From: Micromonospora sp. CPCC 205371
GTDB taxonomy: Bacteria > Actinomycetota > Actinomycetes > Mycobacteriales > Micromonosporaceae
Assembly (NCBI RefSeq): GCF_026130045.1
Contig: NZ_JAIBNX010000068.1
Span: 1 to 38,311 of the forward strand
Direction: 5' to 3'
Length of the DNA: 38,311 nt
Shown here: positions 36,387-38,311 of the stretch, piece after piece
Layout of the letters: each line of letters starts with the position of its first letter
Numbering within the stretch: position 1 is the stretch's first letter
Position numbers and translations under genes: made by a program
The notes under the pieces: generated by a model
Told to the model about the DNA's origin: nothing
The model's input: the letters and a program-made list of their open reading frames with translations, nothing else
Databases searched by the model: none

Positions 36387-37425
36387 AAACATTCTTGAGG
36401 TCAACGACCTGGTCAAGTACTACCCGGTCACCCGCGGCATCGTGTTCAAGAAGACCATCGGGCACGTCCAGGCTGTCGACGGGGTCTCGTTCAACCTGCG
36501 CAAGGGCGAGACCCTCGGCATAGTGGGCGAATCCGGCTGCGGCAAGTCGACGCTCGCCCGGGTGCTCATGAGCCTGGAGAAGCCCACCCGCGGCAGCGTG
36601 AAGTACAACGGCCAGGAAATCTACGGGATGGGCGCTTCCGGGATGCGGCGACTTCGGCGCAACATCCAGCTCGTCATGCAGGACCCGTACACCTCGTTGA
36701 ACCCGCGCATGACGGTCGGTGACCTGATCGGCGAGCCCTTCGAGATCCACCCCGACGTGGCGCCCAAGAGCAGCCGGCGGCAGAAGGTCCAGGACCTGCT
36801 CGAGGTCGTCGGGCTCAACCCGGAGCACATCAACCGGTACCCGCACCAGTTCTCCGGCGGCCAGCGGCAGCGCATCGGCATCGCCCGTGCCCTGGCACTG
36901 CGCCCGGAGATCATCGTCTGCGACGAGCCGGTCAGCGCGCTCGACGTGTCGATCCAGGCCCAGGTCATGAACCTGCTGGAGAAGCTCCAGGACGAGTTCG
37001 GCCTGTCGTACATCTTCATCGCACACGACCTGTCCGTGGTGCGCCATCTCTCCGACCGGGTCGCCGTGATGTACCTGGGCAAGATCGTAGAGATCGGCAC
37101 GGAAGACGAGATCTACGAGCGGCCGACTCACCCGTACACCCAGGCGCTGCTGTCGGCCGTGCCGGTGCCCGACCCGAGCAGCCGCGAGACCAAGGCGATC
37201 ATCCGGCTGACCGGTGACGTGCCGAGCCCAGCCAACCCGCCGTCGGGCTGCCGGTTCCGCACACGCTGCTGGAAGGCTCAGGAGATCTGCGCCACGGAGG
37301 TGCCGGAGCTAACGGTGCGCAGCGGCTCCGACCACCCGAGCGCCTGCCACTTCGCGGAGAAGCGCGAGATCGTAGCCACCCACGAGGCCGGCGAGCTGAC
37401 CGACCTCCCAACCCGCACGCTGTAG
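36379..37425 (+). CDS. Peptide ABC transporter ATP-binding protein, DppF/OppF family
   Basis: Second ATPase, pairing with the DppD-like protein. Walker A is GESGCGKST near residue 50, the signature FSGGQRQR near 157, Walker [13 protein letters not shown], and the H-loop IAHDLS. The C-terminal extension again has a Cys cluster ([16 protein letters not shown]). With 348 residues it is a little longer than usual owing to a polar tail. The GTG at 36379 lies within the end of the previous gene. It is the last gene of the operon; a weak GC hairpin and a palindromic repeat follow. Confidence 0.95.
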
Positions 37426-37436
37426 CAGCCCCGCCG

Positions 37437-37457
37437 CCGCACGCTCGCGCCGTGCGG
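37437..37457 (+). terminator. Weak hairpin after the peptide ABC operon
   Basis: CCGCACG (37437-37443) and CGTGCGG (37451-37457) form a 7-bp stem with a seven-base loop, 12 bases after the last stop. There is no U-tract. The larger palindrome at 37484 may be the more effective stop for this operon. The remaining bases to 37647 show no gene. Confidence 0.4.
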
Positions 37458-37483
37458 GCGCTGCGCGCCCTGTCCCTGTCCGT

Positions 37484-37562
37484 CGATCAAGGGCTAATGC
37501 ACGTGGTTTGATCTCATTTCCGCGTGCGTTTGCCCTTGATCGTGGGGAATGCCCTTGATCGG
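37484..37562 (+). repeat. Palindromic repeat element, copy 1
   Basis: The core 37485-37541 (57 bases) has 19-base arms (37485-37503 and 37523-37541) matching at 17 of 19 positions around a 19-base centre. A further half-arm GCCCTTGATC (37551-37560) lies ten bases beyond. The reverse complement of the whole unit recurs at 38234-38311, with only four differences in the 57-base core. It sits in the convergent gap between the peptide ABC operon and the chorismate mutase gene. Confidence 0.88.
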
Positions 37563-37647
37563 CGAGCGCCGTCCGCAGCGTGTGGCCGTCATCGTCCGGC
37601 CCCTTGCGCTGCGCGCGACCCGGGCCCTGTGCTGCGTTGGGGCGGGC

Positions 37648-37965
37648 TTAGAGGGGGCCGCGGCCTGCGCGGAGGATGAGCAGCGCGAGCTGGGTGCCGT
37701 CCGCTCCGAGGGCGGCGCGGAAGCGGTCCAGGATCTCTCGCTCCCGGGAGAGCACCAGCCTGGTACCCCCGGAGGCCAGCCGGGTGGCGCCGACCTGCTG
37801 GGAGAGCGCGGCACGCTCCTGCCAGAGCTGGATGAGCGCGTTATCGATCTCGTCGATGCGCTGCCGCATCGCGGTGATGCGGTCGGACGCGTCCTGGGCG
37901 TCGGTGCCGGTCTCGGCGCTGGCCGCCGTGCCGCCCGGTTGCTGCTCTGCCACGTCGGTGGCCAT
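37648..37965 (-). CDS. Chorismate mutase, AroQ type
   Basis: Converts chorismate to prephenate at the branch to phenylalanine and tyrosine. The 105-residue protein has a disordered Ala/Thr/Gln-rich N-terminus (1-28) and then the AroQ helical fold: MRQRIDEIDNALIQLWQERAALSQQVG, a short loop, and REREILDRFRAALG. Arg in the first helix and the RERE stretch are the usual active-site positions. The ATG at 37965 has AGGGAG six bases upstream. It is preceded by a leader with a Phe/Tyr-rich peptide and terminator, consistent with end-product control. No aromatic pathway gene is adjacent within the window, and inverted repeats lie on both sides. Confidence 0.92.
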   Translation of the reverse strand: MATDVAEQQPGGTAASAETGTDAQDASDRITAMRQRIDEIDNALIQLWQERAALSQQVGATRLASGGTRLVLSREREILDRFRAALGADGTQLALLILRAGRGPL

Positions 37966-38013
37966 CGGTGCTCCCTGGGTCTCGGTCCCGGTGTCCTGGC
38001 GTCCGGAAGCGCG

Positions 38014-38044
38014 AAAGCCCCGGACTCCAGGAGCCCGGGGCTTT
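38014..38044 (-). terminator. Attenuator terminator before chorismate mutase
   Basis: On the minus strand the segment 38044-38030 (AAAGCCCCGGGCTCC) pairs with 38028-38014 (GGAGTCCGGGGCTTT), giving a stem of up to 15 bp including one G-U pair, ending in CUUU. It lies 49 bases before the chorismate mutase start and 16 bases after the leader-peptide stop. Its downstream arm contains GGAGTCCGG, which also occurs inside the leader peptide gene (38088-38080), so the upstream arm has two possible partners. Confidence 0.75.
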
Positions 38045-38059
38045 GGTAGGTCTTTGTGA

Positions 38060-38125
38060 TCAGGCGCGACCTACGGCTGCCGGACTCCCGGAGCCGTAAA
38101 AGTAGAACCGTGCGTGGTGGATCAC
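38060..38125 (-). CDS. Phe/Tyr leader peptide of the chorismate mutase attenuator
   Basis: The GTG at 38125 opens a 21-residue frame, MIHHARFYFYGSGSPAAVGRA, with four consecutive aromatic codons TTC TAC TTT TAC (residues 7-10). It has no ribosome site, but a -10 hexamer ends exactly six bases upstream, so the transcript would begin at the GTG itself, which is a leaderless start. From the fourth aromatic codon on, the RNA can form TACGGCT/AGCCGTA (38098-38092 with 38078-38072). A terminator and then the chorismate mutase gene follow. A longer frame to 38272 exists but is not supported. The design is that of classical amino-acid attenuators; the function is inferred. Confidence 0.75.
   Translation of the reverse strand: MIHHARFYFYGSGSPAAVGRA
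38072..38098 (-). promoter_or_regulatory. Leader hairpin with antiterminator segment
   Basis: TACGGCT and AGCCGTA are perfect 7-base arms that sequester GGAGTCCGG (38088-38080). Released, that segment can pair with CCGGGCTCC (38038-38030), the upstream arm of the terminator. Since the first arm begins at the last aromatic codon, a ribosome stalled there would open this hairpin. A second alternative pairing, GTAGGTC (38074-38068) with GACCTAC (38052-38046), encloses the stop codon. Confidence 0.6.
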
Positions 38126-38131
38126 GGCGCA

Positions 38132-38161
38132 AGTATGCCGGCGCGTCACGTCGAGCCGCAA
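38132..38161 (-). promoter_or_regulatory. Promoter of the chorismate mutase leader transcript
   Basis: On the minus strand TTGCGG (38161-38156) and CATACT (38137-38132) have an 18-base spacer. Counting seven bases on gives a transcription start at 38125, the first base of the leader GTG. Confidence 0.6.
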
Positions 38162-38233
38162 CCCCATCCCACGATCAGGACAAATCACCGCACGGGCCGT
38201 GCGGCGCGGTACCACCCATCCGGCCTGAGCTCG

Positions 38234-38311
38234 CCGATCAAGGCCCTTTTCGTCGATCAAGGGCAAATGCACGCGGAAAAGAGATCATACCACGTGCATT
38301 TGCCCTTGATC
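38234..38311 (-). repeat. Palindromic repeat element, copy 2 (inverted relative to copy 1), cut by window end
   Basis: The core 38255-38311 has perfect 19-base arms (38255-38273 with 38293-38311) around a 19-base centre that matches the reverse complement of copy 1 at 17 of 19 positions. A half-arm GATCAAGG (38236-38243) lies ten bases before it, in the mirror position of copy 1. It may extend past the last base. Confidence 0.88.

Follow-up and report, generated by a model that had tools for sequence, protein, structure and literature searches.

Chorismate mutase (CM) commits chorismate to phenylalanine and tyrosine, a branch on which many actinomycete natural products draw. In Escherichia coli the activity is part of PheA, a bifunctional CM-prephenate dehydratase, and the leader peptide gene pheL, which has a Shine-Dalgarno start, uses control codons for Phe and none for Tyr. 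The pheL-pheA system is an established case of attenuation through a Phe leader, and in Corynebacterium glutamicum the leader aroR, with the run Phe-Tyr-Phe, stands before the operon of the DAHP synthase gene aroF (PMC11802643). Leaderless attenuator peptides (trpL1, ilvL, leuL and others) lie ahead of hairpins in Streptomyces lividans (PMC8079986), and comparison of genomes has revealed Trp, Leu/Ilv and Cys attenuators in Actinobacteria (PMC1262725). Here and below, these three papers are cited for excerpts of their texts.

The window, by which we mean the whole 38,311-nucleotide stretch from Micromonospora sp. CPCC 205371 that was analyzed, encodes on its minus strand a CM of 105 amino acids that scored above cut-off with NF005894 and TIGR01808 and whose nearest PDB sequences are of the Rv0948c type (2qbv). 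In front of it the preliminary description, made from the letters alone, had reported a GTG-started frame of 21 codons with TTC TAC TTT TAC behind promoter-like boxes, a hairpin starting at the last aromatic codon, and a segment of nine bases common to this hairpin and to a terminator arm. All of these are present in the sequence (Table 1): the hairpin, P1, pairs UACGGCU (38098-38092) with AGCCGUA (38078-38072), and the segment, GGAGTCCGG, occurs at 38088-38080 and again at 38028-38020. As argued below from conservation, covariation and modelling, the element is very probably a ribosome-mediated Phe/Tyr transcription attenuator of the trp/phe type that controls CM.

Table 1. Features of the leader region and of the gene behind it, in window coordinates
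Feature	Position	Strand	Basis or remark
-35-like box TTGCGG	38156-38161	minus	sequence; 18 nt to -10 box
-10 box CATACT (GGCATACT)	38132-38137	minus	sequence and conservation
Leader ORF MIHHARFYFYGSGSPAAVGRA, 21 codons plus TGA	38060-38125	minus	GTG 6 nt after -10 box
GTG start; TGA stop	38125-38123; 38062-38060	minus	leader ORF
Control codons TTC TAC TTT TAC (Phe Tyr Phe Tyr), codons 7-10	38096-38107	minus	
P1 (1:2) hairpin UACGGCU...AGCCGUA, inner CCGG:CCGG	38072-38098	minus	pairing and both-side changes
Putative antiterminator 5' arm GGAGUCCGG	38080-38088	minus	covariation with terminator 5' arm; swap test
Putative antiterminator 3' arm CCGGGCUCC, also terminator 5' arm	38030-38038	minus	covariation; swap test
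P2 helix GUAGGUC (38074-38068):GACCUAC (38052-38046)	38046-38074	minus	leader stop codon in P2 loop
Terminator-like hairpin AAAGCCCCGGGCUCC-U-GGAGUCCGGGGCUUU	38014-38044	minus	pairing, both-side changes, RNAalifold
Shine-Dalgarno-like AGGGAG of CM gene	37971-37976	minus	sequence
Monofunctional CM, 105 aa	37648-37965	minus	PF01817; regulated gene

A CM protein is found in 148 of 150 genomes of the family. We took in 149 CM loci from 144 genomes, leaving out the CM-bearing G002 (contig edge), G108, G134 and G144 as well as some second copies. The preliminary description had looked to relatives for conservation of the aromatic codons, and indeed the leader with its aromatic run is present at 143 of the 149 loci, a count that is anchored on tail motifs gathered after the leaders had been viewed. 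The unbiased count is that of a generic test for a short ORF with at least three Phe or Tyr in five codons, which recognized 140 of the 149 upstream regions, compared with a mean of 0.55 (maximum 3) in 20 dinucleotide shuffles and with none of the 149 when the reverse strand was read. Counted by genome, the leader is present in 143 of 144, because the six loci that lack it (L128, L134, L136, L139, L140 and L144) are second CM copies in G044, G058, G082 and G146 or, in the one exception, both copies in G030. The leader is thus not a product of chance. A model search of the window's own genome for a second copy gave a next best match of E = 0.011.

The -10 box is conserved along with the leader. 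One locus was dropped from the set used for the -10 spacing and one from that used for the T runs discussed below, leaving 142 in each. The A, T, A and final T of the -10 box are kept at 141-142 of 142 loci, and 22-24 nt ahead of the box, counted from its first base, there is a weaker T/G peak. Leaders start with GTG at 135 loci and with ATG at 7. At 140 of the 142 loci with a recognized -10 box, 6-7 nt separate its end from the start codon, which is what one would expect of a transcript that begins with its start codon. Because the predicted box ends so close to the start, the leader transcript is probably leaderless.

For all covariation counts the 143 loci were thinned to 73 sequences, from which RNAalifold recovers P1 and the terminator unaided. 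Paired cells make up 94.4% of P1 and 94.6% of the terminator, each having 5 pairs with changes on both sides; jointly (94.5% paired) they have 10 such pairs against 3.7 ± 1.1 in shuffled alignments (0/500). The halves of P2, a helix unnamed in the preliminary description, have 88.0 and 93.5% of cells paired and 3 cells changed on both sides. P2 is enclosed by the candidate antiterminator GGAGUCCGG:CCGGGCUCC; taken together, antiterminator and P2 have 90.0% of cells paired and 33 both-side cells against 10.6 ± 2.7 shuffled (0/500), and two of five measures for the same pair are not clearly above shuffles (48/500 and 95/500). The antiterminator covariation rests on column pairs 45-110 (variants GC, AU, GU, UA, CG and UG) and 46-109 (AU, GU, CG, UA and GC), each with 15 both-side cells; read across the two, some lineages have replaced GC/AU by UA/CG and others by AU/UA. 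Of the 73 rows, 12 leave pair 44-111 unpaired, 16 leave 47-108 and 18 leave 45-110. Sliding the antiterminator by one column gives 5 and 6 both-side pairs against the 5 observed, with far fewer cells paired (50.7 and 44.3%). In the swap test, duplexes of a leader with its own terminator arm had a mean energy of -17.37 against -15.59 ± 0.21 for permuted arms (0/2000); an average of 32% of the foreign arms paired at least as strongly as the leader's own, as is expected of arms that are rich in GC and have CCGGG in common. Terminator and antiterminator are mutually exclusive, since one arm is shared, and both covary, the antiterminator mainly at its two column pairs. Thus both alternative stems are kept in relatives, and the conserved codons and covarying alternative structures support the interpretation of the element as an attenuator.

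A possible additional stem, GCGCGA:UCGCGC (38113-38108 with 38069-38064), would close P1 round the control codons. It lies in columns 16-21 and 66-71, where 86.3% of cells are paired, is poor in the window (GCACGG), and covaries weakly, with 4 pairs changed on both sides, a number reached by 36 of 500 shuffles. In Rfam 15 the region 37400-38311 has sub-threshold matches only and none at gathering score to a T-box, a riboswitch or any other family.

The region 37995-38125 folds with z = -3.2. The arms of the predicted terminator (38044-38030 and 38028-38014) form a 15+1+15 inverted repeat, so that the arms of the 15-bp terminator proposed earlier are there; a stem of that length would have a loop of a single base, however, and we therefore estimate that about 12-14 pairs are realistic. 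The U tract behind it (GGGGCUUUCGCG) is also short, and across the family, runs of T behind the 3' arm reach 4 or more at 69 of 142 loci and do not exceed 3 at the other 73. A CGGG-like motif, TCCGGA in the window (38007-38002), follows the 3' arm by 7-12 nt at 114 of 142 loci, as counted with a broad pattern and without a background control, and the minimum-energy fold has the window copy paired to the leader. The short U tract and this motif would suit an element that acts on translation of CM, or by way of Rho, instead of through an intrinsic terminator. We nonetheless consider such a mode of action very unlikely, given that the conserved hairpin is a strong, GC-rich, terminator-like stem and that in the window 37 nt separate its end from the Shine-Dalgarno-like site of CM downstream.

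How far does the element extend? An exact pattern of its 39-nt core, run against 84,980 species, was found in 96 stretches. Among the 80 matches listed, which we take to be from Micromonosporaceae genera or MAGs, 79 have CM downstream; the remaining one is cut off after 34 nt of downstream sequence. A search of the order with model R1 at E ≤ 0.1 gave matches in 119 of 150 genomes (100 genomes of other families), a count that may be too high because four second-best matches, L202-L205 (E 2e-5 to 7e-5), proved to be bare terminators that no CM follows; we do not regard these as members. The best R1 matches of 16 genomes from 10 other families (E 2e-16 to 2e-5) all stand before CM; RFFYGYRSPVAV is an example of their leaders. 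In the class, R1 at E ≤ 1e-4 matched 35 of 246 genomes, three of them from the window's family; 27 loci outside the family were inspected, and 21 precede CM, 5 DAHP synthase and 1 neither. Thirty genomes, mostly missed by R1, were also searched: 17 have CM at E ≤ 1e-6, of which 11 have an aromatic leader by pattern (3 of them in genomes that R1 had already matched) and 6 do not. The genus with leaders of the form MxxQTTFLFTYG is presumably Streptomyces.

The elements at DAHP synthase (L215, L226, L230, L228 and L231; R1, E 1e-8 to 8e-6) have leaders such as MQRNFWRFYGYRP..., with Trp, Phe and Tyr, in one family (f31) and RFFSYGDAPEAA... in another (f43). One of the five enzymes is of the Bacillus subtilis type by NCBIfam, and the other four are identified by their similarity to that one. 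Inside the window's family, the 520 nt upstream of the main class II DAHP synthase match in 10 genomes held no shared aromatic leader, which speaks against a pathway-wide version there; 5 of these 10 upstream regions have an unrelated short aromatic stretch, as judged by eye.

These searches bear on whether the hairpin might simply be an unregulated 5' terminator accompanied by a chance or unrelated small ORF. The upstream regions are GC-rich and hence easily folded, and R1, as noted, also matches bare terminators elsewhere (L202-L205). Against this, the ORF taken alone far exceeds its shuffled controls (140 of 149 against 0.55), the antiterminator covaries, and the distance from the -10 box to the start is fixed, so that we give this explanation very little credence.

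Trp accounts for 1 of 605 aromatic codons in the leaders of the family. Among the Phe codons 211 of 265 are TTT, compared with 4 of 81 in six genes of the window, a preference that may serve to adjust sensitivity or to prevent structure from forming in the region. In four genera (g5, g12, g14 and g15) the reading frame past the aromatic codons is altered, giving tails such as GTDRPSRRSSR, GTGCPGRRSR and similar ones, and the stop codon shifts by 1-3 nt only; these genera keep the terminator and the P1 arm, together with GACCUAC and either GUAGGUC or a near match to it. Because these lineages shifted frame after the control codons yet kept the RNA, we conclude that selection acts on the RNA rather than on the peptide. 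That the ORF instead serves to make a small functional peptide or an arrest peptide, active through its own sequence, for which the C-terminal GSGSPAAVGRA, found with close variants across much of the family, would have been kept, is most improbable in view of the same RNA motif read in another frame in those four genera, with the stop moved by so little, and of tails such as YGYRSPVPV in other families.

The attenuator would work as follows. Transcription would start at or next to the GTG at 38125, and a ribosome could load there, at the 5' end. With ample Phe- and Tyr-tRNA the ribosome would clear the control codons, reach the stop codon and leave, whereupon P1 (UACGGC:GCCGUA) would form or re-form and sequester GGAGUCCGG, and the hairpin at 38044-38014 would end transcription. 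With scarce Phe- or Tyr-tRNA the ribosome would stall at codons 7-10 and mask the 5' arm of P1, so that P2 and GGAGUCCGG:CCGGGCUCC could join as one long antiterminator; this would consume the 5' arm of the terminator before its 3' arm is made, and the polymerase would enter the CM gene.

Modelling of the RNA before the 3' arm is made is in part consistent with this scheme, from which we infer the response to amino acids. With the ribosome's P site at the first aromatic codon, the terminator 5' arm is predicted to pair with the leader (>0.5) at 140 of 142 loci, compared with 30 of 142 without a ribosome. In a scan of the P site over 134 of the 143 loci, a model with an assumed ribosome footprint, the antiterminator peaks at 0.71-0.81 at offsets -12 to -3, where a Phe, Tyr or Trp codon is in the A site at 84-100% of loci (the 100% at offset -3 is a consequence of the anchor), and falls to 0.35 at offset 0 and to at most 0.15 from +3 to +9; the peak has a broad 5' side, where offsets -30 to -15 already reach 0.52-0.69. 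One locus was dropped from the stall model and nine from the scan, their arm or anchor being unrecognized. The control codons thus seem to be placed so that a stalled ribosome would open P1.

Some of the modelled states, however, do not fit a simple attenuation scheme. With a ribosome on the stop codon and the upstream RNA free to pair, the antiterminator is still predicted (>0.5) at 122 of 142 loci; its suppression there in the scan is due solely to the ban on pairing by upstream RNA, which gives 0 antiterminator by construction. As long as the 3' arm has not been made, the window's own ribosome-free RNA favors the antiterminator (0.86), and the full-length RNA at equilibrium favors the terminator in every state (0.95-0.97). 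Because of this last result the switch would have to be kinetic, and the three mismatches together imply a need for both kinetic control and ribosome release. The trp attenuator likewise uses both.

It is possible, though we put it forward tentatively and with some doubt, that a single ancient leaderless aromatic attenuator serves the class, standing before CM with Phe/Tyr codons or before DAHP synthase, there with Trp in addition in one lineage. The codons would then be tuned to the products of the step controlled, as their distribution between CM and DAHP synthase would imply, with the rare TTT making a sensitized sensor.

We also note that the gene is flanked by an inverted pair of a palindromic repeat of about 80 bp, GATCAAGGGCAAATGCACG...CGTGCATTTGCCCTTGATC, at 38232-38311 (plus strand) and 37485-37567 (minus strand). 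This repeat, which is REP- or MITE-like, occurs at about 50 distinct places among 93 matches in its own genome; several copies form inverted pairs with a few hundred bp between them or lie at the ends of contigs. Among six Phytohabitans genomes it has many copies in two, one weak match in two and none in two.

If confirmed, the element would place the Phe/Tyr branch point under transcriptional control at the level of codons throughout one family and in members of others, and would offer a simple target for studies of attenuation where the transcript is leaderless. As an RNA element it has no Rfam 15 match at the threshold used above. The preliminary description knew of no attenuator reported for a stand-alone CM with Phe/Tyr codons and a leaderless start. 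In part this holds: a literature search, by titles and the beginnings of abstracts of the papers listed and covering few subscription journals, found neither this target nor the occurrence in other families, and a word search of PMC2965389 and PMC4833913 did not find "chorismate". Leaderless peptides and a Phe-Tyr-Phe leader, on the other hand, were already known (PMC8079986, PMC11802643).

Finally, how does the locus compare with these systems? Like the element of the window, pheL-pheA of E. coli attenuates the CM step through a leader peptide with Phe (PMC11802643); unlike it, the CM of the window is monofunctional, and its leader has both Phe and Tyr codons and a start that looks leaderless. 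With aroR the element shares an actinobacterial setting, the run Phe-Tyr-Phe and ribosome-mediated attenuation, but aroR is described as responsive to Phe and not to Tyr, and its target is the DAHP synthase gene aroF rather than CM (PMC11802643). The table of eight leaders for S. lividans includes none for CM or for Phe/Tyr (PMC8079986), and the authors of the genome comparison, in the text excerpted, report that they saw no conserved structures for other amino acid pathways (PMC1262725). The element is new and widespread, and the kind of regulator to which it belongs is already known from pheL and aroR.
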